Below are positions 4,926-20,365 of a DNA stretch of 64,000 bases, one piece after another. The position numbers and the translations under genes are program-made. The notes below the pieces were generated by a model. It was given only the letters and a program-made list of their open reading frames with translations. It was not told the origin of the DNA and did not search any database. Numbering within the stretch: position 1 is the first letter of the stretch; the number at the start of each line of letters is the position of its first letter. Origin of the DNA: Candidatus Kuenenia stuttgartensis (GTDB lineage: Bacteria; Planctomycetota; Phycisphaerae; Phycisphaerales; SM1A02); assembly GCA_945902075.1 (NCBI GenBank), contig CAMDMA010000017.1:1-64000 (forward strand), read 5' to 3'.

Positions 4926-5172
4926 CTTTCTAACCTCTATGTAGGAAACACACCTGCCACGCGACCTCCACCACGGAAGCCCCGAGAGTGGAGACACTAC
5001 AAGAAGTTACGATCTTGTCAACCCTTTCGATGGCTTGTTGGTCAAATTTACGCGTACGAAATATCGAAACCCGGAAGTGTCCTCAGGCCGATATCTCCTA
5101 TTCGCGGGATATACGAGCCACCAATGTCGCGAATGCCATCCAAATGGATTCTAAGTGAGAAATTACTGCCCA

Positions 5173-6711
5173 ATGACGCACGCTTCGTTGCTGAAGAAAC
5201 GCAGACTCATTCCGATCTTTGCGGCCCTACTCTGGAACAGCATTGGGGCTGCGGCAGAGCTAGGCTCCGATATCCGACGGTCCGTCTCTACTTCTGGACT
5301 TGGCGAACTCGTTTCCTACTCGGTTGTCGATGTTGGGACCGGCCAAACCATCGCTTCCGGAGGCGACTTCACGCTCAGAAAGCCGGCGAGCAACATGAAG
5401 TTGCTCACGACTGGTGCGGCGCTCGAATCCCTTGGCCCCGAGTTCAAGTTTCGCACGCAGCTCAAAGTTGATTCCAACTTGGGCCTCGCTCGAATGGTGG
5501 TTGCAGGAGGCGGGGATCCGGGGTTTGCGGACCCTGAGTTGCTCGCCCGTATGTCTTTCATCGACGACGCCGGGAAAGCCCGACCGGGGCTCGGTACGCA
5601 GGATCTGCTGCAATGGTGGATCGACGCCGCGGTCAAAGCTGGCATCACCCGTGTCGCGGAACTCGTCGTAGACGATCGCGTGTTCGACCGCGTCTGCTAC
5701 AACCCGGCATGGCCGACCGACCAGCGAACCCGCCCCTACTGCGCTGAGATTTGGGGATTTAATTTCCACGCCAACATGATGTTCGTGCGTGCGCGCACGA
5801 GCGACACGAAGGTGGTCATTGATGGACTCGAGCCTTCATTTGACTGGACCATCGCGCGTAACGGGGCCACGGTCGGCCCGGCCAAATCCAAATCAAGTTT
5901 CGTTGTCACGCGAAACGCGGAGAGTCATGACCTCGTGGTGAGCGGTCGATTGCCGGCAGGAGCACGCGTCGAACTTGACCTGTCGATTCACAATCCGCCG
6001 GCGCTTTTTGGTGAACTGCTTTCGCGTGGCCTCAGAGCCCGCGGTATCACCGTCGATTCGGTTCGGCTCGCAACCGGGGCTGACCCGGCCGCCACGGGCA
6101 CGGTCCTCGGCGTCATCGAAACCCCTCTCGCTGTGGTACTCGCTCGCGCGAACACCGACAGCAACAACCTTCATGCCGAAGCGCTGCTGAAGCGCCTCGG
6201 TGCCGCGCACGCGAATGCTCCGACGGCAATCCCGGGGCCCGGATACATCGGAGGGTCGTGGGAGAATGGAGCATCAGCGCTGCGTGAGAGCCTTGAGCGA
6301 CGAGTCGGCGCAGATTCCGCGGCGTTTGTCCTTTCCGATGGCTGCGGACTGTCGCACGCCAATCGGGTGACCGCTGCCGGGATGACTGCTTGGTTGCGCT
6401 CCTTTGCAGCCGACGACCGACTTGGGTCAGCGTTTCTTGCGAGTCTCGCGATCGCTGGCGAAAACGGCACCGTTCAAAAACGTTTCGCCGAACTCGCCGG
6501 GAGTCCGGTCTCCGTGCGATGCAAGACAGGCTACATCAATGGCGTCAGTTGCTTGAGCGGCGTCGTCATCGCTCCAAGTGGCAGAAAAATTGCCTTTAGT
6601 GTGCTCACAAACGGCATCGAGAAGATCGGCACTGATCGTCCCAAGAAGCTTCAAGAGGCACTTGTCATGGACATTGTGCGCGCGCTCAGCATTCCAAATG
6701 GTCGTCCGTGA
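5173..6711 (+). CDS. dacB: D-alanyl-D-alanine carboxypeptidase/endopeptidase, PBP4 (S13) family
   Basis: A 512-residue periplasmic enzyme that trims or cuts peptidoglycan stem peptides. From the ATG at 5173 it opens with a basic n-region (LLKKRRLIP) and a hydrophobic signal segment ending near AAAELG; a GTG at 5155 would add six residues. All three serine-acylase motifs are present: S73-N-M-K76, S330-N-N332 and K451-T-G453. Between the first two lies the extra domain typical of class C low-molecular-weight PBPs (GGGDPGFADPEL). The length is close to E. coli DacB. The SLC13 gene follows after 18 bp, so they may share a transcript. Confidence 0.93.
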   Translation: MTHASLLKKRRLIPIFAALLWNSIGAAAELGSDIRRSVSTSGLGELVSYSVVDVGTGQTIASGGDFTLRKPASNMKLLTTGAALESLGPEFKFRTQLKVDSNLGLARMVVAGGGDPGFADPELLARMSFIDDAGKARPGLGTQDLLQWWIDAAVKAGITRVAELVVDDRVFDRVCYNPAWPTDQRTRPYCAEIWGFNFHANMMFVRARTSDTKVVIDGLEPSFDWTIARNGATVGPAKSKSSFVVTRNAESHDLVVSGRLPAGARVELDLSIHNPPALFGELLSRGLRARGITVDSVRLATGADPAATGTVLGVIETPLAVVLARANTDSNNLHAEALLKRLGAAHANAPTAIPGPGYIGGSWENGASALRESLERRVGADSAAFVLSDGCGLSHANRVTAAGMTAWLRSFAADDRLGSAFLASLAIAGENGTVQKRFAELAGSPVSVRCKTGYINGVSCLSGVVIAPSGRKIAFSVLTNGIEKIGTDRPKKLQEALVMDIVRALSIPNGRP

Positions 6712-6729
6712 TATCCGTGCGCGGTACGG

Positions 6730-8604
6730 GTGTGGCCGCTTTTCAATACGCTGCGCCGTTGGGCTGCTGCCGATGCGCCCATTGATGCTGTAAGCAACCG
6801 ACGAAAGGAACCGCCCATCGACTCGCAAGCCGTCATCGCGCTCACCTGCGTCTCTGTGACCCTTGCGCTGCTTGTCCGCGGAAAGATCGCAAGCGACATC
6901 GTCATGGCTGGCGGGATCGGGCTCCTCGTCCTTAGTGGTGTGCTCGAGCCAAAAGAAGCCTTCTCCGGGCTGGCGAGCTCGTCCATCATCACCATTGCGC
7001 TTCTGCTTATTGTGTCTCAGGGTGTCATTGAGACGGGGCTGATTCAGTGGGTTGGGCCCGCGATCTTCGGAAAAACGAAGTCGGTGTTTGTTGGTCAGTT
7101 GCGACTCATGATTCCGGTCGCTGCGATCTCCGCATTTATCAATAACACGCCATTGGTCGCGATGTGCATCCCGGTCGTGCACGACTTTGCCAGGCGCACA
7201 CGGATCGCCCCGGGCAAACTCTTCATTCCACTCGCATATGCCGCGACGCTTGGCGGCGTCTGCTCGCTCATCGGAACCAGCACAAACCTCGTCGTCAACG
7301 ATATGTGGACGAAATCCGGGCACCCTTCGTTTGGGTTATTCGACGTCGCGCCGGTGGGTATTCCTGTCGCTCTCACGGGAATTGCTTACATCCTGCTCGC
7401 GGGACGTTGGCTGCTCCCTGAGAGTGGTCGTACCGAACTCGCGTCGACCGATCCGCGGAGTTACACCGTCGAGATGGTTGTCGCTGGCGCGCCGATCGCC
7501 GGAAAGTCGGTGGAGGCCGCAAACCTTCGCGGACTTGAAGGGCTGTATCTCGCGGAGCTCGCGCGTGGCGATGAGATTCTCACTCCCGTCGAACCGGAGA
7601 CCACACTCCTCACCGGCGATCGCCTCTTCTTCGTGGGCGATGTGAATTCTGTTGTCCAGCTCCAGAGACTGCGCGGGCTCGAACCCGCGACCGACCAGGT
7701 GGCCAAGCTCGGGCGCGATCGCTATCGAAGATTTCTTGTTGAGGCGGTCGTATCGGACACTAGCCCTCTTCTCGGGAAGACGATTCGTGAATCGCGATTT
7801 CGTAATGTCTACGGCGCGGTCGTCATCGCGATTTCGCGCAACGGAGCGCGGATCAGTAACGTCAAACTCGGCACCGTCGTACTGCGAGAAGGTGACGTGT
7901 TACTCCTCGAAACAAAAGAGGCCTTCCTCGCCGGGTTCGGTGAGTCGCGTGATTTTCTCCTCGTACGACGTCTCGAGGACTCCGCACCAGTGCAGCATGA
8001 ACGTGCGCCGATTGCGGGTGCAATTCTTGTTGGCGTGATTGCAATTGCGACGATCCGTCCGTTCGGGTTCGACATGTTTCACGCCGCATTCGCGGGTGCG
8101 GCGCTGATGATTGCGACCCGCTGCTGTACCGGCGCCCAGGCGAGACGCGCGCTCAACGCGCGCATGATCTTCGTGATCGCAGGATCCATCGCGCTAGGTC
8201 TAGCTCTCGATAAAACGGGGGTTGCATCCTTCTTCGCAGAACAGCTGATCGGCTTGAGTGGCGGCCACTTACTTGCGACGATCGCAGCGCTCTACTTCGC
8301 AACCTTTGTGCTCACGGAACTTCTCTCGAATGCGACTGCTGCGGCGTTGATGTTCCCGATCGCAATCGGCGCAGCGCAATCCGCGGGTTTCGATCCGCGT
8401 TACGCCGCCATCATCACCATGATCGGAGCAAGTGCAAGTTTCTCAACGCCGATCGGGTACCAGACGAACCTGATGGTTCAAGCTCCGGGGGGCTACAAGT
8501 TCACAGACTTTATGCGGATCGGAATTCCACTCGGCATTCTCTCCGGCATCGTCGCAGTCCTGGCAATTTGGATTTTGGCTGCCGGAACTTCGCCGACCGG
8601 CTGA
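6730..8604 (+). CDS. SLC13/DASS-family permease with two TrkA-C domains, probable sulfate transporter
   Basis: A 624-residue inner-membrane transporter. Two repeated membrane halves carry the family's Asn-Thr/Asn-Ala hairpins (AFINNTPLVAM with GTSTNLVVND, and LLSNATAAALMFP with SFSTPIGYQTN). Between the halves are two RCK_C/TrkA-C regulatory domains (about residues 240-320 and 330-410; for example GDRLFFVGDV and EGDVLLLETKE). This layout is that of SAC1-like and bacterial SLC13 carriers for sulfate or dicarboxylates. The next four genes are all for sulfate activation, so sulfate is the likely substrate (inference from neighbours). The start is a GTG at 6730 with no clear ribosome-binding site; the first ~30 residues are hydrophilic and the true start is uncertain. 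Confidence 0.85.
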   Translation: MWPLFNTLRRWAAADAPIDAVSNRRKEPPIDSQAVIALTCVSVTLALLVRGKIASDIVMAGGIGLLVLSGVLEPKEAFSGLASSSIITIALLLIVSQGVIETGLIQWVGPAIFGKTKSVFVGQLRLMIPVAAISAFINNTPLVAMCIPVVHDFARRTRIAPGKLFIPLAYAATLGGVCSLIGTSTNLVVNDMWTKSGHPSFGLFDVAPVGIPVALTGIAYILLAGRWLLPESGRTELASTDPRSYTVEMVVAGAPIAGKSVEAANLRGLEGLYLAELARGDEILTPVEPETTLLTGDRLFFVGDVNSVVQLQRLRGLEPATDQVAKLGRDRYRRFLVEAVVSDTSPLLGKTIRESRFRNVYGAVVIAISRNGARISNVKLGTVVLREGDVLLLETKEAFLAGFGESRDFLLVRRLEDSAPVQHERAPIAGAILVGVIAIATIRPFGFDMFHAAFAGAALMIATRCCTGAQARRALNARMIFVIAGSIALGLALDKTGVASFFAEQLIGLSGGHLLATIAALYFATFVLTELLSNATAAALMFPIAIGAAQSAGFDPRYAAIITMIGASASFSTPIGYQTNLMVQAPGGYKFTDFMRIGIPLGILSGIVAVLAIWILAAGTSPTG

Positions 8605-8620
8605 TCACGCGAGACATTTC

Positions 8621-9607
8621 ATGCAACAAGAATTCCTCCCCGTCATGATCCACGCAGTCGAGCACGCCGCACAGGCGACTCGCTTCGTTCACACATCGTT
8701 TGTGGTCGACGGTGTGTCGAAAGACGACAAGAGTCCCGTGACCATCGCGGACTGGGCCAGTCAAGCTGTTGTGTCGCTGCTACTCGGGCGTCATACAACG
8801 ACAGCGGCATTCCCACTCGTCGGCGAAGAAGAAGCTGCCGCGCTCCGCGCTCCTGAAAACGCGGAGTTGCGCTGTGATGTGGTTGCTGCGGTTTCGCATG
8901 CGATTGGAGCGACGAGCGAGCACGAGTGCCTTGATGCGATCGACCGCGGCCGCGGAATTGCGACTGGAAGATTCTTCACGCTTGATCCCGTGGACGGAAC
9001 CAAAGGCTTTTTACGAAGACAGCAGTACGCGATTTCGCTGGCGCTCATTGAGGATGGCCGTGTGACCTCCGGGGTGGTGGGATGCCCAAATCTTCCGGAG
9101 CAGAATGCGAACTACGACTCTGCTGATCCAATCGGCTGCATCGGTTTTGCCGCGAAGCATGGAGGCGCGTTCCTCCTCAGCGCGGATGGCGCGCATCGTC
9201 GCATCACCATCGCGCCTTGGTCGGCGGGGCAGCCGGTTCGTGCCTGCGAGTCGGTCGAAAGCGCGCACTCAAAGCAGGATCTCTCCGCTGAACTTCTCGC
9301 TGAACTCGGAAGCCCCGGAGTACCTGCACGTCTTGATAGCCAAGCCAAATACCTCGTTGTCGCTCGAGGTGGCGCTGACGCGTATCTGCGCCTACCGACG
9401 AAGAAAGACTACCGCGAGAAAATCTGGGATCACGCCGCGGGGGCATTGATTGCGATGGAGGCTGGTGCGCGCGTCTGCGATGTGGACGGAAAAGATCTCG
9501 ACTTTCGCCATGGTCGAGAACTCCGCGAAAATCGCGGTGTTTTCGCCGGTCACCCCGATGCGGTCGCGCTGTTGGTTGAGGCGTTTGCACGCCGCTCGGA
9601 TGGGTGA
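8621..9607 (+). CDS. cysQ: 3'(2'),5'-bisphosphate nucleotidase (PAP phosphatase), HAL2/SAL1-like
   Basis: A 328-residue enzyme of the Li+-sensitive inositol-monophosphatase superfamily. It hydrolyses PAP, the by-product of PAPS use, to AMP and phosphate and so relieves inhibition of sulfate reduction. Motifs seen are DKSPVTIADWASQ (first metal site), VGEEE, the central LDPVDGTKGFLR that marks the HAL2/SAL1 subgroup, and a C-terminal KIWDHAAGALI metal site. It begins 16 bp after the SLC13 permease and ends 11 bp before the convergent cysC. Its role here fits the surrounding sulfate-assimilation genes. Confidence 0.93.
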   Translation: MQQEFLPVMIHAVEHAAQATRFVHTSFVVDGVSKDDKSPVTIADWASQAVVSLLLGRHTTTAAFPLVGEEEAAALRAPENAELRCDVVAAVSHAIGATSEHECLDAIDRGRGIATGRFFTLDPVDGTKGFLRRQQYAISLALIEDGRVTSGVVGCPNLPEQNANYDSADPIGCIGFAAKHGGAFLLSADGAHRRITIAPWSAGQPVRACESVESAHSKQDLSAELLAELGSPGVPARLDSQAKYLVVARGGADAYLRLPTKKDYREKIWDHAAGALIAMEAGARVCDVDGKDLDFRHGRELRENRGVFAGHPDAVALLVEAFARRSDG

Positions 9608-9617
9608 GCTCCAACCG

Positions 9618-10244
9618 TCAGCCTTGCGTGTGCACCACACTCCGGTCGCGGAGTAGTGTGACGACCGCTGCGGCGGATGCATCGGGATTCGAGAGGTGCG
9701 ACTGAATCACAAGTTCCGGTGAAGTCGGTCGTTCATACGCCTGATGGATGCCTGTGAAGTCCTTGATCTCGCCCGCTCGTGCCCGGCGGTAGAGCCCCTT
9801 CGGATCGCGCGACTCAGCAACCTCCAGCGGAACATCCACCAACACTTCGAGAAATGGAATCCCCCACTCATCGTGGAGTGCTCTGACCGCGTCGCGATCA
9901 GCGCGAAACGGGCTCACAAGGCTTGCGAGGACGATCACGCCGGCATCGGCAAGAATTCGGCAGACTTCCCCGGTACGACGCACGTTCTCTGTGCGATCCT
10001 CCGCGGAGAAACCGAGATTGCGATTGAGCCCATGCCGAAGATTGTCGCCATCGACCCGATAGCAGAGCCGCCCGATACCGAGCAGGCTCGCTTCGACACC
10101 GACTGCGATCGTGCTCTTGCCAGAGCCCGAGAGGCCAGTGAACCAAACCGTCGCACCGGACTGTCCAAGGAGCCGCTCGCGGTCCGCGCGTCCGACCGTT
10201 CCACCGTGCCAAACGACATTTGAAGATTTTTTATCCATGGTCAT
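9618..10244 (-). CDS. cysC: Adenylylsulfate (APS) kinase, stand-alone
   Basis: A 208-residue enzyme that phosphorylates APS to PAPS with ATP. It has a P-loop [13 protein letters not shown], a [16 protein letters not shown] motif that binds [16 protein letters not shown], a [11 protein letters not shown] loop, and the lid element [19 protein letters not shown]. All of these are intact, so it should be active. The start is taken at 10244; ATGs at 10238 and 10274 are also in frame. It is divergent from cysD, with only about 60 bp between the starts, which implies a shared two-way promoter. The window also encodes a second, altered APS-kinase domain at the end of CysN. Confidence 0.94.
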
Positions 10245-10306
10245 GCTCGCCGCGCGGGGACAACGCACCGTCAACCGATACCCTATCGACCCTTGGAATG
10301 CCGCGC

Positions 10307-11233
10307 ATGGAAGAAACCAGACTTACACACCTGAAGGAACTTGAGGCGGAAAGCATCCAGATTTTCCGTGAGGTCGTCGCGAGTTTCGATCGTCCGGTGA
10401 TGCTTTATTCAATCGGCAAGGACTCCGCAGTCTTGCTGCACCTCGCGCGGAAGGCGTTCTACCCGGCGAATCCGCCCTTTCCGTTGCTCCATGTTGACAC
10501 TGGATGGAAGTTCCGAGAGATGTATCGGTTGCGCGACGAGTATGTTGCGAAGGAACTCGGGCTCGAACTCCTTGTCCACATCAATCCTGAGGGTCTTGCC
10601 GCAGGAATTGGGCCAATTTCGCATGGATCGCGAAAGCACACCGATGTGATGAAGACGCAGGGGCTCAAGCAAGCACTTGATAAATATGGTTTTGATGCGG
10701 CCTTCGGCGGTGCGCGCCGAGACGAAGAAAAGTCGCGCGCGAAAGAGCGGATCTTTAGTTTCCGCGACCGCCAGCATCGGTGGGATCCGCGGAGCCAGCG
10801 ACCTGAGCTTTGGAACATCTTCAACACTGAGGTCAACCGCGTTCCCGGCCAGTTAGGCGAGTCGATCCGCGTGTTCCCGCTGTCGAACTGGACTGAACTC
10901 GACGTTTGGCAATACATCTGGCTTGAAAACATCCGCATTGTGCCGCTCTACTTTGCTGCGCCGCGGCCGGTGGTGTATCGCCACGGCGTACCGATCATGG
11001 TCGACGACGATCGCCTCCCGCTCGAGCCGGGCGAGACGCCGGAGATGAAAGTCATTCGCTTCCGCACGCTCGGCTGCTATCCGCTCTCGGGCGCGATTGA
11101 GTCGAGTGCCGCGACGCTCCCCGAAATCATCAAGGAAATGCTGCAGGCCCGCCAGAGCGAACGTCAAGGTCGCGTCATCGACCACGACGCCAGTGGCAGC
11201 ATGGAAGAGAAGAAGAAGGAAGGCTACTTCTGA
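10307..11233 (+). CDS. cysD: Sulfate adenylyltransferase subunit 2
   Basis: A 308-residue catalytic subunit of ATP sulfurylase (sulfate + ATP to APS + PPi). The start at 10307 gives [17 protein letters not shown], which lines up with the start of E. coli CysD; an ATG at 10298 would add three residues. The PP-loop [30 protein letters not shown] and the C-terminal [14 protein letters not shown] region match the family closely. The stop overlaps the cysN start by one base (TGATG), as expected for subunits made in equal amounts. Confidence 0.97.
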
Positions 11234-13200
11234 TGCGTGCGGATTCAAACGCTGCCGAGCAGGAGATGATCGAGCGAGACATCGAGGCGTACCTCGGTCG
11301 TCACGAAACGAAGGAGCTCCTCCGCTTTTTGACCTGTGGCTCCGTCGATGATGGCAAGAGCACACTCATCGGCCGGCTGCTGCACGACACGCACATGATC
11401 CACGAGGACACCCTCGCGGCGGCAGAACGTGACTCAAAATCAATGGGCACGCAGGCCGGCGAACTTGACCTCGCATTGCTGGTTGATGGACTCAAGAGTG
11501 AGCGCGAGCAGGGAATCACGATTGACGTTGCCTACCGCTATTTCACGACCGCGGCGCGCAAGTACATCATCGCTGACACCCCGGGCCACGAGCAATTCAC
11601 GCGCAACATGGCCACTGGTGCTAGCACCTGTGACCTCGCGATTCTTCTCGTTGACGCGCGTCACGGAGTTGCGGTGCAAACGCGTCGGCACTCATTTATC
11701 ACCAGTCTTCTCGGTATTCGCGAGATTGTGGTCGCCATCAATAAGATGGATCTCGTCGGTCACGCGCAGGAGCGCTTCGAAGAGATCATGCACGACTACT
11801 CGGCGTTTGCGTCGAAGTTGCCAGCGCGCAACATGCGCTTCATTCCGATGTCGGCACTCAATGGCGACAACGTCGTTCACCGCAGCACTGCGATGCCCTG
11901 GTATGACGGGCCAACGCTCCTCGAACACCTCGACACCGTGCCGCTTGCAGGTCGCCGCAACATGGTCGACTTTCGATTTCCCGTGCAATGGGTGAATCGA
12001 CCAAACCTTGATTTCCGCGGATTCACTGGAACAATCGCGGGTGGATGCGTGAAGCCGGGTGATCGCGTGATGGTGCTGCCGTCGCGAAAAACTTCGTCTA
12101 TCTCGCGCATCGTGACCTTCGACGGTGACCTCGCGCAAGCGACGCCGCCTCTCTCTGTCACGCTCACACTTGCGGACGAAATCGACTGCTCGCGCGGCGA
12201 CATGCTCGTACACCCCGGGAATGAACCGCATGTCTCGCAAGATGTGCACGCAATGATCGTCTGGATGGACGACGTTGCTCCGCTGGTTCCCGGCAAGGAG
12301 TATCTGCTCAAGCATGGGACGAACAAGACTCCTGCATCCATCACATCGATTGCCCATCGCATCGATGTGAATACGCTTGAACGCTCGACGAGCCCTGCCC
12401 TCGCGCTCAATGACATCGGCCAGGTCGCGATCCGAACGAGCCGACCATTGGTGTACGACGCGTACACCCGAAATCGGCAGACCGGCGCGTTTGTACTCAT
12501 TGATCGCCTTACCAACGCAACGGCCGGCGCTGGAATGCTGCTCGATCCGTCGGATGTTGGCGAAGGACATTGGAAGGACGCTCCGCAGGGCGGCCACCTC
12601 GCGCCTTCAGGCCGCGTCATCACCACAGAGGAACGCGAAAAACGGCTTGGACAGCGGCCGTTCACGCTGCTCTTCACCGGTCTCTCCGGTTGCGGAAAGA
12701 CTGAGATTGCCCGTGCGGTTGAGCGCCGACTCTTTGATCTCGGGCGCTTTGCGGCGGTGATCGATGGACCAGCTCTCCGGTCAGGGATGAGTCGCGACCT
12801 TGGTTTCTCGAAGGTCGACCGTTCGGAGAATCTCCGACGAGGCATGGAGCTCGCAAAGACACTTAATGAACTCGGCCTCGTCGTACTCGCCAGTTTTACC
12901 GCGCCAGATTCGAGCGTACGAATTCGCGCAAGGGAACTTGTTGGCTCCGATCGTTTTGCGGTTGTGCATGTTTCGACCCCGCTCGAGGCGTGTCGACGCC
13001 GCGACCCAGTCGGCCTCTATCGCGACGCCGCAAGCGGAGCGGTCAAAGACGTCCCCGGCGTGGACTTTGAGTACGAAGCCCCGACGGATGCGGAGATCAC
13101 AATTCCGTTTCATGAGCTCGGAACTCCGGACGCTGCAATCCGAACTGCGGTCGAGCGCGTGCTGACCTTCATCGAGTCGCGCGGCGTGATGGTGAAGTGA
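11233..13200 (+). CDS. cysN: Sulfate adenylyltransferase subunit 1 fused to an APS-kinase-like domain
   Basis: A 655-residue fusion. Residues ~25-440 form the CysN GTPase that drives ATP sulfurylase, with GSVDDGKSTLIGRLL (G1), a GITIDVAYR switch, ADTPGHEQF (G3) and NKMDLVG (G4). Residues ~455-655 are an APS-kinase-like domain with FTGLSGCGKTEIA, then D511-G-P-A-L-R516, DRSENLRRGMEL and DPVGLYRDAASGAVKD. In active APS kinases the second motif reads DGDNxR; here the second Asp and the Asn are replaced by Pro and Ala. The kinase half may be weak, altered or regulatory, while the neighbouring CysC keeps the normal motif. The gene ends 4 bp before the convergent kdsD stop. Confidence 0.95.
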   Translation: MRADSNAAEQEMIERDIEAYLGRHETKELLRFLTCGSVDDGKSTLIGRLLHDTHMIHEDTLAAAERDSKSMGTQAGELDLALLVDGLKSEREQGITIDVAYRYFTTAARKYIIADTPGHEQFTRNMATGASTCDLAILLVDARHGVAVQTRRHSFITSLLGIREIVVAINKMDLVGHAQERFEEIMHDYSAFASKLPARNMRFIPMSALNGDNVVHRSTAMPWYDGPTLLEHLDTVPLAGRRNMVDFRFPVQWVNRPNLDFRGFTGTIAGGCVKPGDRVMVLPSRKTSSISRIVTFDGDLAQATPPLSVTLTLADEIDCSRGDMLVHPGNEPHVSQDVHAMIVWMDDVAPLVPGKEYLLKHGTNKTPASITSIAHRIDVNTLERSTSPALALNDIGQVAIRTSRPLVYDAYTRNRQTGAFVLIDRLTNATAGAGMLLDPSDVGEGHWKDAPQGGHLAPSGRVITTEEREKRLGQRPFTLLFTGLSGCGKTEIARAVERRLFDLGRFAAVIDGPALRSGMSRDLGFSKVDRSENLRRGMELAKTLNELGLVVLASFTAPDSSVRIRARELVGSDRFAVVHVSTPLEACRRRDPVGLYRDAASGAVKDVPGVDFEYEAPTDAEITIPFHELGTPDAAIRTAVERVLTFIESRGVMVK

Positions 13201-13204
13201 GCCT

Positions 13205-14242
13205 CTACTCTTTCACCACCCGCATCGCGATGAGATCTTGAACATCGACGAGACCAACGGGCTTGCCTTCTCGGTCAACGACAGGAATCTCGTCGAGACG
13301 CTTCTCTTGCACGAGTTGAACAGCGTCGCGTACCAGCGAGTCGACGGTGAGTGTTGTTGGATGGCGCGTCATGACGCCCGCGATTGGGGCGTCGAGGACG
13401 GAGAGAGTTCCACCGTTCACATGACGCCTGAGATCGCCGTCTGTGAAGATGCCGCTGAGCCGACCGCCGCGATCAACAAGCACTATCGCGCCAGCGCGGC
13501 GACCTTCGCCGCCAGCTCGCAAAGCTTCGCGCACCGTGCTTGTATCCGGCACCGCTGCGAGGTTGTGGCCCACACGAAACCGCAGCACCTCTGTCACCGG
13601 CCGAAGTCCAGCACCAAGCATGCCACCTGGGTGATGCTTATGAAAGTCATCCTTGCCGAAATCACGCCGCTGCGCGAGTGCGAGCGCAATCGCGTCGCCG
13701 ACGGCGAGGGTCAGCGTCGTCGATGCCGTCGGCGCGAGTTGGAGCGGACATGCCTCGGTGATGTCACCCAGATCGATATGCACGCTGCACGCACGCGCGA
13801 GACTTGATTTGACTTTGCCCGACATTCCAACAGTCGGAATGCCGTCCATCTTGAGAATGGACGCGAGTGCAACGACCTCCTGCGTCTCGCCGGACCAACT
13901 GAGGAGGAGCACGATGTCGTCGCTGCGAATCGAACCGAGATCGCCGTGAACCGCCTCCGCCGGGTGCACGAAATGGGAAGGCTGACCGAGGCTCGAAAGA
14001 CTCGCTGAGATCTTGGCACCGATGAGCCCAGACTTTCCCATACCACTGACAACGACGTGTCCCTTGCAAGACTCCAGCAGGTCAAGCGCGGCGTGGAGTC
14101 CGAGGTCTTCGCCTCCCGCGACGCGTGAACCAAACTTCGAGACTGCAGCGGCCTCTGTCTCGAGCACTTCCCTCAGAAAATCCCGCTCGTTCGTACGAAT
14201 GTGTGGGTCGCGAGACGCGGTTGCCGGCGCGGAGTCAGCCAT
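13205..14242 (-). CDS. kdsD: Arabinose-5-phosphate isomerase (KpsF/GutQ/KdsD)
   Basis: A 345-residue enzyme that interconverts ribulose-5-P and arabinose-5-P, the first step to KDO. An N-terminal SIS domain (VVVSGMGKSGLIGAKISASL, FVHPAEAVHGDLG, LLSWSGETQEV) is followed by two CBS domains in the C-terminal ~120 residues (VREALRAGGEGRRAGAIVLVD and VMTRHPTTLTVDSL). His residues in DDFHKHHPGG match the metal/active-site loop of KdsD. It suggests that the organism makes KDO, and hence an LPS-type or capsule glycan. Its ATG (14242) is within 55 bp of the divergent scpA start. Confidence 0.95.
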   Translation of the reverse strand: MADSAPATASRDPHIRTNERDFLREVLETEAAAVSKFGSRVAGGEDLGLHAALDLLESCKGHVVVSGMGKSGLIGAKISASLSSLGQPSHFVHPAEAVHGDLGSIRSDDIVLLLSWSGETQEVVALASILKMDGIPTVGMSGKVKSSLARACSVHIDLGDITEACPLQLAPTASTTLTLAVGDAIALALAQRRDFGKDDFHKHHPGGMLGAGLRPVTEVLRFRVGHNLAAVPDTSTVREALRAGGEGRRAGAIVLVDRGGRLSGIFTDGDLRRHVNGGTLSVLDAPIAGVMTRHPTTLTVDSLVRDAVQLVQEKRLDEIPVVDREGKPVGLVDVQDLIAMRVVKE

Positions 14243-14294
14243 GGGGCAAGTGTACGTTCGATACGAAACCGTCGCGCGTGGTAGATTGCATCCG

Positions 14295-15116
14295 ATGTCG
14301 CAGAACGACTGGCTCGTGCGTCTGCCCGTTTTTCAGGGCCCCCTCGACCTCCTGCTCTTCCTTGTGAGGCGCGCGGAGGTTGATATCCACGATATTCCGA
14401 TTCATACGCTCACCGATCACTACCTTGAGTATGTGCGTCGGCTTTCAACGGTCGATATTGATCTTGCGGGCGAGTTTCTCGTGATGGCTGCCACGCTTGT
14501 CGAGATCAAGTCCCGCTCGCTCGCGCCCGTTCAGGTGACGGATGATGGTGATCCCAATGCACCTTCCACGCCAGGTGAAGATCCGCGCGCTGAGCTCATC
14601 CGACAGTTGCTGGCCTATCAGAAGTTCCGCACTGCTGCGGAGGTACTCGATGCGCGGCGTCGCGATTTTGCAGAGCGTGCACCAGCGCGTGTGCGGCCAG
14701 GTTCAATAGAAACGGCTGAGATCGACGGAGACACAGAGACCGAGTTTTTAGAACCTGAGGATTTCGAGCTTGAAGATCTCCACCTCGGCGATCTCTACGC
14801 TGCATTTGAGCGTATCGCGGCGTCCATTGATCTCACCCGCGTTGGCGACCACATGGTTGAGTACGACGATACGCCGATCTCATTGCATCAGGAGGATCTG
14901 GTCGATCGACTCGGACGCACAAGCGAGCATCGGTTGACCCTCGGAAGCGTCTTCGATGGACGAACGCACAGCGAGCGAATCGGCCTGTTTCTCGCGTTAC
15001 TTGAACTTGTTCGACAAGGACGCGTGCACGTGAAGCAAGATGACCTCGATGATCAGATCGAAATCACGCTCTCCGTCGAGCGCGGCCCGGATGCGCCGTT
15101 TGCTGCAGCAGACTGA
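14295..15116 (+). CDS. scpA: Segregation and condensation protein A (kleisin)
   Basis: A 273-residue kleisin that bridges SMC heads in the condensin complex. The N-terminus has the ScpA hallmark FQGPLDLLLFLVRRAEVDI, then LAGEFLVMAATLVEIKSRSL; the middle is acidic (EFLEPEDFELEDL) and the C-terminus has the winged-helix part FLALLELVRQGRVHVKQ. The frame is open upstream to 14013, but that part lies antisense to kdsD and is not conserved. ATGs at 14241 and 14295 are possible, and 14295 gives the normal family start. No scpB is next to it; the stretch after it is convergent. Confidence 0.93.
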   Translation: MSQNDWLVRLPVFQGPLDLLLFLVRRAEVDIHDIPIHTLTDHYLEYVRRLSTVDIDLAGEFLVMAATLVEIKSRSLAPVQVTDDGDPNAPSTPGEDPRAELIRQLLAYQKFRTAAEVLDARRRDFAERAPARVRPGSIETAEIDGDTETEFLEPEDFELEDLHLGDLYAAFERIAASIDLTRVGDHMVEYDDTPISLHQEDLVDRLGRTSEHRLTLGSVFDGRTHSERIGLFLALLELVRQGRVHVKQDDLDDQIEITLSVERGPDAPFAAAD

Positions 15117-15143
15117 GCAATGTGCATGCAACGTTCCGAAGAA

Positions 15144-15341
15144 TCATGCACATTCGCGCATGGTGACCGGCGCCAAATCACTGCGACGAATCCATCTCGC
15201 ACTTGACGCTGGTTCAAGCGTGATCCGTAAGTGTTCGCGGTAATGCTCGAGCTCTTGAATCGAAAACGACTCGAGCCATTGGTGCTCGGCGGACGGATTG
15301 AGTTCACGAATTTCGTCGATGATCCGGTTCTTCTGCGGCAC
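15144..15341 (-). CDS. Small protein of unknown function (65 aa)
   Basis: A 65-codon frame that opens with GTG at 15341 and has an AGGAG ribosome-binding site 9 nt upstream. The peptide has a helical pattern (IIDEIRELNPSAEHQWLESF, then IQELEHYREHL) that resembles short planctomycete proteins built around a 'DEIRxLNPxAxxxFLxxF...YxxHL' motif; this likeness is from memory, not from a search. The C-terminal 20 residues are less ordered. It lies 83 bp downstream of the receiver-domain gene on the same strand and may be co-transcribed with it. No function can be assigned. Confidence 0.55.
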   Translation of the reverse strand: MPQKNRIIDEIRELNPSAEHQWLESFSIQELEHYREHLRITLEPASSARWIRRSDLAPVTMRECA

Positions 15342-15424
15342 GGCAATAGTCTCCTGAAGAAGGAGAATCGGCCGTCACCCCGGAGTCGCTTGAAATGTGG
15401 ATGCGCTGCGGACTTTCCGTCCGC

Positions 15425-15886
15425 TTAGCGTCCGGAAAGTAGTTCCGTAAGTTTGCGCTTGAGAAGTGCCACTCGGAGCAGGCTTCGAACACGCGTGAGC
15501 AGTTCAAGTTTGTTTACCGGCTTCGTGAGAAAGTCGTCGGTCCCGCTTTCAACCGCGCGCTCGTGATCGCCAACTTCGTGAAGGGCAGTCACCATGATGA
15601 CCACCATGTCGCGCGTCGCTGGATCACTCTTCACCTTTCGGCAGACTTCAAATCCAGACATTCGCGGCATCATCACATCGAGCAACACGAGATCGGGGCG
15701 ATCTTTCTGAATCGACTCTATGGCCTCAAGCCCGTCACGGGCCGTGGAGAGTTTGCAGGGAAGCGACTCGAGGTAGGCGAGCATGAGTTCAAGATTCTGC
15801 TGATTGTCGTCTACAAGCAGAATCTTGGCGTTTGAGAGGTCCGTGAGCGCGGCTTCATCAATCGTGGGCTGGGTCGCACCGGTCAT
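15425..15886 (-). CDS. Single-domain response regulator (CheY-like receiver)
   Basis: A 153-residue protein consisting of a receiver domain only. It has an acidic pair (LLVDDNQQN), the phospho-acceptor Asp in LVLLDVMMPRMSG, the switch Thr in IMVTALHE, and the conserved Lys in FLTKPVNK. There is a ~20-residue N-terminal extension and a short basic helix (LLRVALLKRKLTELL) after the domain, with no output domain. No histidine kinase gene is nearby, so the partner is encoded elsewhere. The wording of the receiver (DDNQQNLELMLAYLES) is like those found in hybrid kinases and PleD-type proteins. Confidence 0.93.
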   Translation of the reverse strand: MTGATQPTIDEAALTDLSNAKILLVDDNQQNLELMLAYLESLPCKLSTARDGLEAIESIQKDRPDLVLLDVMMPRMSGFEVCRKVKSDPATRDMVVIMVTALHEVGDHERAVESGTDDFLTKPVNKLELLTRVRSLLRVALLKRKLTELLSGR

Positions 15887-16030
15887 TCCCGCAGTCTAGC
15901 AGACGACGCAAAATGCTTGCGGCGCGAAGCCCCGGCCAAAAGACGTTGGTCCAAAAGTGTTGGTCAAAAGAGCGTCGGCGGAAAAGCGCTGGATAAAAGT
16001 ACTGCATAAAAGCTGCGGCCGCAGACCTCC

Positions 16031-19021
16031 CTACAGTCCGAGCGCGCGCACAGCGAGGTCGACTGGATGCAGGGCCTCACGGGCCGTCCCGTCGTGAATC
16101 TGATGCCGACAACTGGTCCCCGGCGCGCACACGACGGCCTCAGGGGCTGCCCGAACTGCCGGAAACAACCGCTCCTCACCGATCGCCATCGAGAGGTCGT
16201 AACGGCGATCGATGTAACCAAAACTCCCTGCCATTCCGCAACAGCCAGTATCGATCACGGAAAGGTCCTTGCCAAAGATTCGGCGGAGGAATCGCGCGGA
16301 TGTCTCGCTCCCCCACAATGCTTTCTGATGGCAGTGCCCATGGAGGAGCACTGCATCGGCTTGTGGCGGAATTGCTGGTCGCGCAGGATGCTCGTCCCAC
16401 GCACGATCAAGGAATTCCTCAACGAGTGCTGTTCGTTTGGCAAGCGCCTCGCGACGGACGCGTATCTCAGGCCCCGCACCCAGCGGAAGAAGTTCAAGCC
16501 AATCGTCGCGCAAGGCGCTCGCGCAACTTGGCTCGAGCACGAGCACCGCCTCCGCCTTCGTCGACTCAAGCAGCATGTCGAGCGCCGTCGCGGCACGGGC
16601 GATCTCGTCACGAGCCTCCGCAAGGAGACCGGTTGAAATGAGACTGCGTCCGCAACAACCAACATCGGCGAGTACGACGCGATAGCCAAAGGCTTCAAGC
16701 AGCGTTACTGCAGCGCGACCTATTGCAGGTTCGTTGTACGCGGAGAAGCAGTCACCGAAGAGGATCACCGTACGCGTGGCGGTATGTGGATCGCGACGAC
16801 GGAACCAATTGAAGAGCGATGCGCCGAAGGCAGGGATTGAGCGGCGTGGATCAACGCCGAGAACTGCGTGAGCCAGTTTCTTCGCCAACGGCGTTTGATT
16901 CACCAGATTCGCAATCACAGCGAACCGCGATCCAATCGCATTGAGGCGCCGGACGTGTCCAAACACACGCGCTGAGATCGGAGCTCCCTCGCGTGCGTAT
17001 CGCTGCGCGGTGTATTCGGCCTTCAATTTCGAAATGTCGACGTTTGATGGACACTCAGTCTTACACGCCTTACAGGAGAGGCACAAATCAAGCGTCTCCA
17101 TTGTGTCCGGATCGTTCCAGCGATCTTTAGACAGCTGGCCGCTGACGGCGAGTCGAAGCGCGTTCCCGCGACCGCGCGTCGAATGTCGCTCGTCGCGAAG
17201 CGCACGGTAGGAAGGACACATTGATGTCCCACCGGAGATGCGGCGACAGAGCCCCGCACCATTACATGACTCAACCGCGTGCTCAAAGCCCTCTTCGCGC
17301 GTGTACGTGAAGTAGCTCGTGACTGCGGGCGGATGATCCTCATGGCCGTGCGCAGTCACACGAAGATTCTCAATGATGCGCTCAGCCGGACCAGTCTCGA
17401 CGATATTGCCAGGATTGAGGAGGTTGCGTGGATCAAATGCGCGCTTGACCGCTCGCAACGCGTCGCAAATCGTTTCACCGAAATATCGACCAAGGAGCGG
17501 CGATCGCACGCGACCGTCGCCATGCTCACCGGAGAGTGCGCCACCATAGCGCGCCACGAGATCAGCGATGTCGGAAGCGATTGCGACCATCAATGCACGG
17601 TCACTTGGATCATGAATGGCTACGAGCGGCCGAATATGCAGGCAGCCCACAGACGCATGCGCGTAGTACGCAGCCGTGGTGCCGTGGCGCGTCACAATCG
17701 CGCGGAAATCCTCGACGAAATCCGGAAGCTTCGCGGGATCAACCGCGGTGTCTTCGACGAAGGTAAACGGCTTGCGTATCCCAGGAACGCCATGAAGGAG
17801 CGGCTCACCAGCTTTGCGGAGTTTCCATGCCTTGAGCCTCTCCGATGCACCAATGTAGGTCGAGATCGAGCCACTGGGCACTGCGGCGCGAAGTGCGTCG
17901 AATCGCGCAGGCAACGCATCCACGTCATCGGCGAAGTACTCAACGTACAGCACTGCGCCAAGGAGGCCGGATGTTGGCTTGGGCATCAGTTCAACATACT
18001 GCCGGTACTCCGTATTCCGCCGCGCGACATCGATCACGACATCGTCGACGAGTTCGACTGCAGCAGGTTTCGTCGCGAGAATCGCCGCAAGATTTGCAAG
18101 TGAGTCGCGCACACTTGCGAAGCCAAGGATCGCAAGCCCACGCTCACGCGGCTTCGGAACAAGCGAAAGTTCCGCGCGAAGCGTCGTTGCAAGCGTTCCT
18201 TCGCTCCCGCAGACGAGATGCGCGAGGTTGACACGATCAAACGTACCGGGAGTTGAACGCTCGATTTGCTCGAGCAAAATGTCGAGCGAGTACCCATCGA
18301 CGTGGCGCAAAATCCGGGGAAAGCGGGCGCGAATCTCCGTTGCAATCGGGAGGACGATCTGCGCCAACCGCTCGACGAGTTCACGCTGCACGGGATCGCG
18401 ATCGCAACTCCCCTCTTCGAGCCGATGCACCGAACCATCCGCGAACGCGACCTCGAGTGCTACAAGATTTTCGACCGTCCGTCCGTAGAGAATCGAGTGC
18501 GCGCCTGCCGAGTTGTTACCCACCATTCCACCGATCGTGGCGTGCGAACTGGTCGCCACATCGGGACCAAACAGAAGCCCGTGCGGCGCCAATGCTTCGT
18601 TGAGTTGGTCGAGCGTGACACCGGGCTCGACCACCGCGCGCCGCGCGTCCACGTCTATGGAGACAATTGCCCGGCAATACTGGGAAAAGTCGACGACAAC
18701 AGCCTCGTTCACGCTCTGCCCTGCAAGCGCCGTTCCTGAACCGCGCGGCAGTGTGGGCACGCCTTCTTGGGCTAGGAACGCGACGACGCGGGCACCGTCC
18801 GAAACAGAGTGCGGTACCACAACGCCAATCGGCTCGACCTGATAGATGCTCGCATCAGTTGCATACAACAAACGGTCATGACGACCAAAGCGAATGTCGG
18901 CTGCCGCCACTCCTCGCATCGCAGTTGAGATGCGTAGCCTCAACGCGTCAAGCGCATCGCCATGCGCAACGAGCGGAAGACTTGCGGACTGCGTGCGGAC
19001 TCCGACAGCAACATCAGACAT
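16031..19021 (-). CDS. FAD-binding and Fe-S-binding 2-hydroxyacid dehydrogenase (YdiJ/GlcD-GlcF-like)
   Basis: A 996-residue fusion. Residues ~45-270 form a PCMH/FAD-binding_4 domain (PRGSGTALAGQSV, VGNNSAGAHSILYGRT), ~280-540 an FAD-oxidase C domain ending in GEHGDGRVRSPLL, and ~590-690 a ferredoxin-like domain with CSGxxxC-type clusters (CNGAGLCRRISGGTSMCPSY and CLSCKACKTECPSNVD). The C-terminal part has two CCG domains (VGCCGRSLIS and TGCCGMAGSFGY) as in GlcF and heterodisulfide reductases. The order and length match E. coli YdiJ, which oxidises D-2-hydroxyacids and passes electrons through Fe-S centres. It lies 21 bp after the thioredoxin-domain gene on the same strand. Confidence 0.93.
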   Translation of the reverse strand: MSDVAVGVRTQSASLPLVAHGDALDALRLRISTAMRGVAAADIRFGRHDRLLYATDASIYQVEPIGVVVPHSVSDGARVVAFLAQEGVPTLPRGSGTALAGQSVNEAVVVDFSQYCRAIVSIDVDARRAVVEPGVTLDQLNEALAPHGLLFGPDVATSSHATIGGMVGNNSAGAHSILYGRTVENLVALEVAFADGSVHRLEEGSCDRDPVQRELVERLAQIVLPIATEIRARFPRILRHVDGYSLDILLEQIERSTPGTFDRVNLAHLVCGSEGTLATTLRAELSLVPKPRERGLAILGFASVRDSLANLAAILATKPAAVELVDDVVIDVARRNTEYRQYVELMPKPTSGLLGAVLYVEYFADDVDALPARFDALRAAVPSGSISTYIGASERLKAWKLRKAGEPLLHGVPGIRKPFTFVEDTAVDPAKLPDFVEDFRAIVTRHGTTAAYYAHASVGCLHIRPLVAIHDPSDRALMVAIASDIADLVARYGGALSGEHGDGRVRSPLLGRYFGETICDALRAVKRAFDPRNLLNPGNIVETGPAERIIENLRVTAHGHEDHPPAVTSYFTYTREEGFEHAVESCNGAGLCRRISGGTSMCPSYRALRDERHSTRGRGNALRLAVSGQLSKDRWNDPDTMETLDLCLSCKACKTECPSNVDISKLKAEYTAQRYAREGAPISARVFGHVRRLNAIGSRFAVIANLVNQTPLAKKLAHAVLGVDPRRSIPAFGASLFNWFRRRDPHTATRTVILFGDCFSAYNEPAIGRAAVTLLEAFGYRVVLADVGCCGRSLISTGLLAEARDEIARAATALDMLLESTKAEAVLVLEPSCASALRDDWLELLPLGAGPEIRVRREALAKRTALVEEFLDRAWDEHPARPAIPPQADAVLLHGHCHQKALWGSETSARFLRRIFGKDLSVIDTGCCGMAGSFGYIDRRYDLSMAIGEERLFPAVRAAPEAVVCAPGTSCRHQIHDGTAREALHPVDLAVRALGL

Positions 19022-19042
19022 GGAGGAAGGATAGTGCGCAGC

Positions 19043-20365
19043 CTACTTCGATGCAGCCGGGGCAGCGGGCGCATCGCGCTTTGGGCAGAGTTGCTCGAGC
19101 TTCTCGCGCAGCTCCTGTTGCGACCGCGGCGAACTACCAACCCATACTCCGGCGATCTTGCCGTCCGGGCCGACAAGAAAGGTCGTTGGAAATGCGCGAA
19201 CGAGCCAACGCCGCGAGGCCATGGAATCAAGGTCAAGCACTCCCGGCAAAGAGGACACACCTCGCTTCTTCAAGACTTCGGCGATGCGCAACTCACGCTC
19301 TTCTCGCGATCCCTGCTCGCCCGTGTTAACGAGCATCACATCGGCGCGACCTTCGAACTCCGTCGCGAGTTTGGCCAACTCAGGCAATGCACCGATACAC
19401 GGCCCGCACCACGTGGCCCAGAAGTCGACAACAACGGGCCGGGGCCGTGCCGCCGCAAGCGACCAGTCCCCACCCCCTCCAACGCGCGGGAGCACAAGTT
19501 CGGGTGCGGGATCACCGGCTTTCAAGGCCTCAACGCTCTTATCTTCGATGGCTTCTTTCCGACGATCTATCAGCGCTGCAAGACCATCGACTTTCTGCCG
19601 ACTCGATACATCCAACGCAAAATCAGCGTCCGTTGGTTCAACCTTCGGAATCGACGACTTCGAGGCGACCTTCCAAATGAGTTCGGACCCGGGCTCAACA
19701 TTCGGCCCGCTTCTGAGTACGCCGCGCGCGAATTCAACGACGTTGGTATCGGGATCAAAGGAGAGCCGCAATTCCTCCGATCCATCGTCACTCGCGAGCA
19801 CGAGCACGTCGTAGACCTGACCGTCGGTCTCTTCTGTGTCAACGCGAATCGGAACCACGTTTGGAATCTGTGGCATGAGTTGCATACAGACCTCAAGTGG
19901 GTCGTCCTCACCGAGGGCCAGCGCCAACTCTGGAAAAGGCAACGCCTGGAACGCGTTGAACAGTTGGTAATACGGTGAACCGTTGTCCGAAATCTCAAGG
20001 TAAGTCAGCGCGTTGCTCTCGTGGGTGGCGACGATCTTGCCACCAGCAATCAGCAGCGCGTAGTCGCGAAGTTTGATCTGCGCCCGTCGGTCGGAGGCAA
20101 AGCGGAACGAGGCACTGACGGTGGCACCATCCGCCTCTTGGTCACCCTTACGCGCCGCGGGTGTCGCCTTCGTCGCGACGTCGACACCACGCGCAGATCG
20201 ATAGGTCGCGATGATCGCTTTCAGCGAGGCCTCCGCGCGTTCACGATCTGCCTGCACATCCGCGATGGCGAGGACGACTGCAGGTTCAGTCGCCCCCTGT
20301 TGTTCCTGAGCGTGAAGCGTTCGAGGTGCGACGAAGACAAGCGCGGCAATCAGGATTCGATACAT
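19043..20365 (-). CDS. Exported TlpA-like thioredoxin-fold protein with N-terminal carrier-like domain
   Basis: A 440-residue protein. The start at 20365 has a GGAGG site 6 nt upstream and gives a signal peptide (MYRILIAALVFVAPRTLHAQ). Residues ~30-280 look like the LolA/DUF2092-type half-barrel found in front of redoxin domains (ASFRFASDRRAQIKLRDYAL, YYQLFNAFQALPFPE). Residues ~290-430 form a TlpA/redoxin domain with the active site FWATWCGPCIGALPEL and a cis-Pro loop RAFPTTFLVGPDG. It should act outside the cytoplasmic membrane as a thiol-disulfide reductant. It is a diverged paralogue of the next gene upstream (20471-21790); a strong hairpin between them suggests separate transcripts. Confidence 0.88.
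   Translation of the reverse strand: MYRILIAALVFVAPRTLHAQEQQGATEPAVVLAIADVQADRERAEASLKAIIATYRSARGVDVATKATPAARKGDQEADGATVSASFRFASDRRAQIKLRDYALLIAGGKIVATHESNALTYLEISDNGSPYYQLFNAFQALPFPELALALGEDDPLEVCMQLMPQIPNVVPIRVDTEETDGQVYDVLVLASDDGSEELRLSFDPDTNVVEFARGVLRSGPNVEPGSELIWKVASKSSIPKVEPTDADFALDVSSRQKVDGLAALIDRRKEAIEDKSVEALKAGDPAPELVLPRVGGGGDWSLAAARPRPVVVDFWATWCGPCIGALPELAKLATEFEGRADVMLVNTGEQGSREERELRIAEVLKKRGVSSLPGVLDLDSMASRRWLVRAFPTTFLVGPDGKIAGVWVGSSPRSQQELREKLEQLCPKRDAPAAPAASK

Follow-up and report, generated by a model that had tools for sequence, protein, structure and literature searches.

What does an adenosine 5'-phosphosulfate (APS) kinase domain do when it is fused to CysN, has lost its catalytic side chains and is encoded beside a complete, separate APS kinase? 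This question is raised by a stretch of 64,000 nucleotides, referred to here as the window (contig CAMDMA010000017.1, positions 1 to 64,000, of assembly GCA_945902075.1, named Candidatus Kuenenia stuttgartensis and placed in the planctomycete order Phycisphaerales). The window encodes, at 11233-13200 on the + strand, a CysN of 655 amino acids with a C-terminal, predicted non-catalytic APS-kinase-like domain. We give about an even chance to the proposal that this tail is a non-catalytic domain that binds APS or 3'-phosphoadenosine 5'-phosphosulfate (PAPS) and regulates CysDN, the GTP-dependent ATP sulfurylase.

The GTPase part of CysN (residues 1-440, 11233-12552, + strand) contains the Pfam domains GTP_EFTU at residues 28-234 and GTP-eEF1A_C at 338-436, and matches TIGR02034 over residues 30-436 with 630 bits. 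A probably flexible linker (residues 443-463, 12559-12621, + strand), with a predicted local distance difference test (pLDDT) score <50 in the full-length model, leads to the APS-kinase-like domain (residues 464-655, 12622-13197, + strand). This domain belongs to the APS_kinase family PF01583, scoring 153.8 bits at residues 475-624 against a cut-off of 21.1 and spanning profile positions 1-151 of 152. The window protein also matches NCBIfam NF004035, the bifunctional sulfurylase/kinase, at 905 bits (cut-off 715). Its layout is that of bifunctional CysN/CysC proteins such as NodQ and Mycobacterium tuberculosis (Mtb) CysNC, in which a single chain carries a CysN GTPase and then an APS kinase domain, with the same domain order and homologous domains. 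A model of residues 459-655 reached a pLDDT of 92.3 and a predicted template modelling score (pTM) of 0.89, and its best fold matches are the APS kinases 4fxp and 3uie (Z 29.1).

We read the active site against Mtb CysC. Excerpts of PMC4373884 describe Asp480 of the DGDN motif as the proposed catalytic base, with a mouse counterpart cited as essential by mutagenesis, Lys562 of the lid as the second catalytic side chain and Phe576 of the lid as stacking on the APS adenine. Excerpts of a 2026 paper (PMC13213808) name three lid residues as important, one each of Arg, Lys and Phe, and by position we equate these with Arg559, Lys562 and Phe576. The open reading frame and the alignment confirm that D511-G512-P513-A514-L515-R516 (12763-12780, + strand) occupies the canonical DGDNxR site, as an earlier note on this DNA had read it, so that the catalytic Asp is replaced by Pro513. 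The P-loop GLSGCGKTEIA (residues 483-493, 12679-12711, + strand) is kept, as that note also stated. Its reading of the lid as kept has to be revised: the window has DPVGLY (residues 591-596, 13003-13020, + strand) for the canonical DPKGLY, the catalytic Lys is Val593 and the lid Phe is Val607. Two catalytic side chains are therefore gone from the window's domain, not one, which sets the protein apart from NodQ and Mtb CysNC, as does its separate CysC. The residues that remain are Lys489 (Mtb Lys456), Asp511 (Asp478), Arg516 (Arg483), Phe525 (Phe492), Arg530 (Arg497) and Arg590 (Arg559), among which Arg516, Phe525 and Arg530 (12778-12822, + strand) belong to the APS pocket by the roles given in excerpts of PMC4373884. 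The separate CysC about 1 kb away (about 9618-10244, - strand, divergent from cysD; start codon 10244 or 10238, read by eye) was correctly described as intact, with DGDNLR, DPKGLY and FTG all present and a PF01583 score of 211 bits. The window's genome has two APS_kinase matches, which are the fused domain and this CysC.

To place the fused domain among its relatives, a search profile built from 22 fused domains was run over 301 genomes of the window's order, 294 of its phylum, 296 from the phylum of a draft titled Bacteroidales and 149 from the phylum of a draft titled Neomarinimicrobiota. Loci were picked by profile score and by hand rather than at random, and the regions fetched comprised 80 from the order, 60 others and the loci returned by searches. 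Fused domains that have lost Asp480 are called dead here, so that Asp480 stands at 0/110 among them by construction and Lys562 serves as the independent check. Residues were read in 159 fused domains, 110 of them dead (from 109 genomes) and 49 intact (from 47 genomes), as well as in 76 separate CysC that are intact. We found that 49 of the 159 fused domains have both Asp480 and Lys562, while 110 are without Asp480 and none has Asp480 but lacks Lys562, so the loss of Asp480 is not a chance letter. Genomes with dead and intact domains number 69 and 5 in the window's order, 19 and 15 in the rest of its phylum (a count that takes in two drafts titled Phycisphaerae, G314 and G315), 2 and 21 in the Bacteroidales-titled phylum, and 19 and 6 in the Neomarinimicrobiota-titled phylum. 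In the draw from the order, CysN reached the cut-off in 103/301 genomes, with a dead tail in 65 and an intact tail in 5; the remaining CysN genomes have a plain CysN by frame length, a broken one, or a region that was not fetched. The kinase half of the name NF004035 is probably wrong for a whole subfamily. The literal motif DGPALR occurs in 5/110 dead domains, all within the window's genus. The earlier note would have counted the lack of a separate CysC in relatives with this motif against its reading, and none of the five is without an intact one.

Several records were kept out of these counts, namely six separate-kinase rows that are dead (L208, L190, L278) or fragments (L161 twice, L129), and intact fusions from named records, five in all (L046-L049, L052), which lie outside the genome-wide kinase count. 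Two of the dead rows are stand-alone APS kinases rather than CysN fusions: L190 (G457) has DGHN, a lid Ser and Val for Arg497 and adjoins an intact CysC, and the other (L278) is from G1008. CysN is split over two frames in G002 and G279, and their tails were counted; in G002 (L160) the break lies near residue 345 and is either an assembly error or real. A second copy at the end of another contig of G012 (L055) consists of the last ~95 residues of a dead domain, 73% identical to the window's, and reflects a strain mixture or a true second gene.

We found that dead domains keep Lys456 in 109/110 cases, Arg483 in 109/110 and Arg497 in 107/110, with Phe492 present as F in 100 and as Y in 9. Among 203 columns these four rank 6th, 7th, 15th and 21st in conservation, respectively, while Asp480 ranks 173rd and Lys562 165th. 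Asp478 is kept in 103/110. Lys562 is kept in 8 of the 91 dead rows with a letter there and falls in a gap in 19 more, and position 480 is filled by many different residues (Q 40, R 15, S 12 and P 5 among them). Among the 36 positions where intact kinases agree to 95% or more, dead domains keep the P-loop glycines and Arg530 (109/109), and they mostly lose the Thr just past the P-loop (kept in 22/110) and much of the lid. The lid columns are absent from 28 dead rows (in one of these, G104, the lid is cut by the contig end), all of which keep Lys456, Arg483, Arg497 and Asp478, with Phe492 as F in 27 and Y in 1. Furthermore, the dead set has conserved letters of its own: a Leu in ENLRR reaches a frequency of 0.88 and a Gly one of 0.98, compared to 0.07 and 0.22, respectively, among intact kinases. 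This retention, together with letters conserved within the dead set, is unlike the drift of an unused domain.

A second APS kinase was found in 102/109 dead-domain genomes and in 5/47 intact-fusion genomes. The corresponding table (102/7 vs 5/42) gives a Fisher value of 4.6e-25 when kinship is ignored, and the phylogenetically independent pairs on supported branches number 4, with a sign-test median p of 0.125. This company is the expectation if dead-domain genomes need another PAPS-making enzyme. Of the 102 second kinases, 65 are intact CysC within the fetched region. Another 30 are intact CysC at other places in the genome, identified by their residues (for G809 over the second half only), and seven are counted there by score; among these seven, the residues of G312 were read and the frame of G916 has the length of a sulfurylase-kinase. 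In 48/66 cases counted, the intact CysC shares the arrangement of the window, being encoded upstream and on the opposite strand. In none of the 47 intact-fusion genomes does the fetched stretch encode a CysC, and the other kinase of five lies elsewhere, three times in a frame of sulfurylase-kinase length. In the remaining 42 no kinase was counted outside CysN fusions, and two of these, G425 and G1008, have two fused copies. The intact CysC beside lid-less dead domains (G081, G128, G200, G221 and relatives; L136, L128, L127, L121) has DGDT for DGDN and Ala for Asn500.

The loss appears to be old. In a tree of the kinase domain, 48/48 sampled dead domains fall on one side of one branch with support 98; with active-site and lid columns removed, the support of this branch is 92, not starred. 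A FastTree tree of the CysN core has 8 changes of the dead label, 3 of them forced by starred branches, and a mixture-model tree of 92 rows has 4 changes, 3 forced (tail-less or cut CysN rows of G002, G004, G163, G294 and G279 were left out of the CysN tree). A single dead clade is not rejected on the CysN core (approximately unbiased test, p-AU 0.378). Many recent independent losses were considered and set aside, as the kinase-domain tree has one dead clade and the CysN-core data do not reject one. We lean to the simplest reading, one old loss followed by transfer; the splits in the CysN tree would be explained by lateral transfer or by a misplaced CysN tree, and shared relaxation of the dead rows could have misled the kinase tree.

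Our data indicate that purifying selection acts on the domain, a little more loosely than on CysC. Within the genus, over 66 pairs each, the median ratio of nonsynonymous to synonymous divergence (dN/dS) rises from 0.108 for the GTPase part to 0.132 for CysC and 0.142 for the domain; the median dS is 1.1-1.4, so that many pairs are near saturation, and the medians omit 2 domain pairs and 8 CysC pairs with saturated dS. Local decay of one copy was set aside on the strength of these ratios and of the clade of dead domains.

The fold, the loss of catalytic residues, the retention of ligand residues, the purifying selection, the spread over three phylum draws and the second kinase were all shown computationally, and from them we infer inactivity, the binding of a ligand, its identity and an effect on CysDN. 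We propose that the APS kinase on CysN lost catalysis long ago and may have been kept as a regulatory domain. CysDN makes APS, which the separate CysC phosphorylates to PAPS, the compound from which sulfotransferases take their sulfate. Although its catalytic Asp and lid Lys are gone, the dead domain retains the P-loop lysine and the majority of the contacts that the APS pocket makes to phosphosulfate and adenine. It would bind either APS or PAPS, the latter oriented so that its 3'-phosphate faces the P-loop lysine, and in its ligand-bound state would lower CysDN activity under a surplus of PAPS. Since the P-loop Lys is kept while catalytic residues are given up, the pocket would suit PAPS with its 3'-phosphate pointing at that Lys. 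We found that the sole PAPS_reduct match in the window's genome is CysD and that there are nine Sulfotransfer_3 matches, eight over the cut-off (one only with neighbours in frame). These matches point to PAPS as a product for sulfation, which sulfate activation in this genome seems to serve. If PAPS is wanted for sulfation, a PAPS-sensing brake on CysDN makes sense.

A kinase-derived domain on a sulfurylase is known from fungi, and here it stands on an unrelated enzyme. Excerpts of two papers describe the fungal ATP sulfurylase domain as an allosteric regulator without APS kinase activity (PMC13213808) and, in the enzyme 1i2d, as binding the allosteric inhibitor PAPS (PMC3779200). The domain of Penicillium chrysogenum ATP sulfurylase (1i2d / 1m8p) resembles the window's in being kinase-derived, in its C-terminal place on an APS-making enzyme and in fold (Z 26). 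Our alignment shows the equivalents of Lys456, Asp480, Arg483, Phe492, Arg497 and Phe576 to be kept in the fungal domain (1i2d); those of Ser457, Asp478, Arg559 and Lys562 are gone from it. Common to both are therefore the kept P-loop Lys, Arg483, Phe492 and Arg497 and the lost lid Lys, while Phe576 is kept in the fungal domain only. The fungal domain sits on a Sat-type sulfurylase, whereas the window's sits on the unrelated GTP-dependent CysDN; PAPS inhibition is reported for the fungal enzyme in the excerpted literature and is a prediction for the window's CysDN. In Entamoeba histolytica, excerpts of PMC13213808 describe an APS kinase whose fused sulfurylase-like domain influences its partner's activity; there the sulfurylase-like half has lost substrate binding and the kinase is alive, the opposite half to that of the window protein. 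The broader statement that an ancient CysN subfamily, found in three phylum draws, uses a dead kinase to sense PAPS or APS and feed back on the GTP-driven sulfurylase, a fungal-like solution separately reached with a different Asp lost, is one that we hold at somewhat below an even chance. If the domain is a sensor, a fused APS kinase would have become a regulator on each of two unrelated ATP sulfurylases, and sulfate activation in bacteria would be subject to feedback. Among the matches listed in the open-licence PMC literature, none described a CysN whose APS kinase domain is inactive.

A number of observations weigh against a PAPS- or APS-sensing domain. The full-length CysN model has a disordered linker and a pTM of 0.53, and it does not predict packing of the domain on CysN; a fixed packing, which we had considered, was thus not produced. 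Ligand contacts are not all kept, as Phe576 is Val in the window's domain and Arg559 is kept in 58/82 dead domains with a letter there, and the residues that are kept may instead serve the fold or the dimer. Pocket residues are lost in G725, G804 and G878, whose domains may really be decaying, and the eight rows with Lys562 could have residual activity. No second kinase was counted in 7/109 genomes (G060, G115, G198, G804, G922, G950 and G961), a finding that sits uneasily with a dead domain. In G198 the end of a contig truncates a partial second match, and G804 has a weaker candidate. G750, outside the count since the CysN part is absent from its locus, has a single match. The domain also evolves faster than CysC (median dN 0.197 vs 0.150), and in ten pairs with core dS <0.8 its dN/dS is 0.07-0.42, above CysC in 8/10. 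Finally, the fungal domain lost Asp478 and keeps Asp480 while the window's domain did the reverse, so that the parallel is not residue-for-residue.

The main rival, which we consider unlikely yet worth the most attention among the alternatives, is that the dead domain is a docking partner: it would pair with the separate CysC in a mixed dimer and so pass APS from CysDN on to CysC, its own pocket being unused or a pass-through. Mtb CysC dimerises via helices alpha2 and alpha3 according to excerpts of PMC4373884, the ENLRR segment shows some of the strongest conservation (Arg535 and Arg536 in 110/110), and in 65/109 genomes the region fetched around the fused gene also encodes an intact CysC. 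Docking leaves unexplained why lid-less domains retain the P-loop Lys together with the stacking Phe and the arginines that bind phosphosulfate, and in 30 genomes the intact CysC is outside the fetched region. A structural remnant, whose fold is kept merely for the stability or oligomerisation of CysDN with no ligand, strikes us as more doubtful still. The confident fold model (pLDDT 92.3) agrees with it, an evolution faster than that of CysC would suit a looser role, and excerpts of PMC3779200 describe the kinase-like domain in the yeast ATP sulfurylase as lacking a defined role. Against this, the ligand residues are among the most conserved columns, and tail-less plain CysN in the same order (8 rows) implies that CysN as such can do without a tail.

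It is improbable, slightly more so than a remnant, that the domain is still an enzyme with another catalytic solution or another nucleotide as substrate, as the retention of the P-loop Lys (109/110) and Asp478 (103/110) and the eight rows with Lys562 might suggest: the lid columns are absent in 27 domains besides the contig-cut one, position 480 varies so widely that no new catalytic residue is fixed there, and another kinase was found in 102/109 genomes. We regard a broken copy on its way out as the least credible account, with very little chance of being right. The lost catalytic residues, the full CysC, the dN/dS above CysC in 8/10 little-diverged pairs and the pocket residues lost in G725, G804 and G878 speak for it, but dN/dS is at most 0.42 in the little-diverged pairs (median 0.142 overall), the dead domains of the three phylum draws group together in a single clade of the kinase tree, and dead-set letters are conserved. 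The earlier note had wavered between an allosteric sensor and a copy being lost; selection, the spread over three phylum draws and the kept ligand residues run counter to a dying copy in this lineage, while a sensor, which would have to bind and regulate, fits the residue pattern and the fungal comparison.

The fused gene closes a cluster in the order anion symporter, HAL2/CysQ-type nucleotidase, cysC on the opposite strand, cysD and cysN. The symporter (6730-8604, + strand) has TrkA-C domains, with matches to CitMHS, TrkA_C and Na_sulph_symp, and perhaps takes up sulfate; a relative lies near 25/85 dead-domain loci of at least 7 kb. It is followed by a 3'(2'),5'-bisphosphate nucleotidase of HAL2/CysQ type (8621-9607, + strand; TIGR01330, 270 bits, cut-off 267), whose expected role is removal of 3'-phosphoadenosine 5'-phosphate. 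CysD, the partner subunit of the GTP-dependent ATP sulfurylase (10298-11233, + strand; TIGR02039, start read by eye), has a stop that overlaps the CysN start, and it is encoded at 85/85 dead-domain loci of at least 7 kb. A scan for promoters and terminators gave a signal no higher than in shuffled sequence, an Rfam scan of 5000-20000 gave no matches, and a plasmid search gave matches at <60% identity only. The host draft genome is 3.3 Mb and 97% complete, and its closest relatives by protein are drafts titled mainly Planctomycetaceae or Planctomycetota, some of them pond-derived. A contig titled Limnohabitans (L040, 2924-4297) encodes CysN residues 1-458 at 89% identity to the window and probably comes from a mixed or mislabelled draft.

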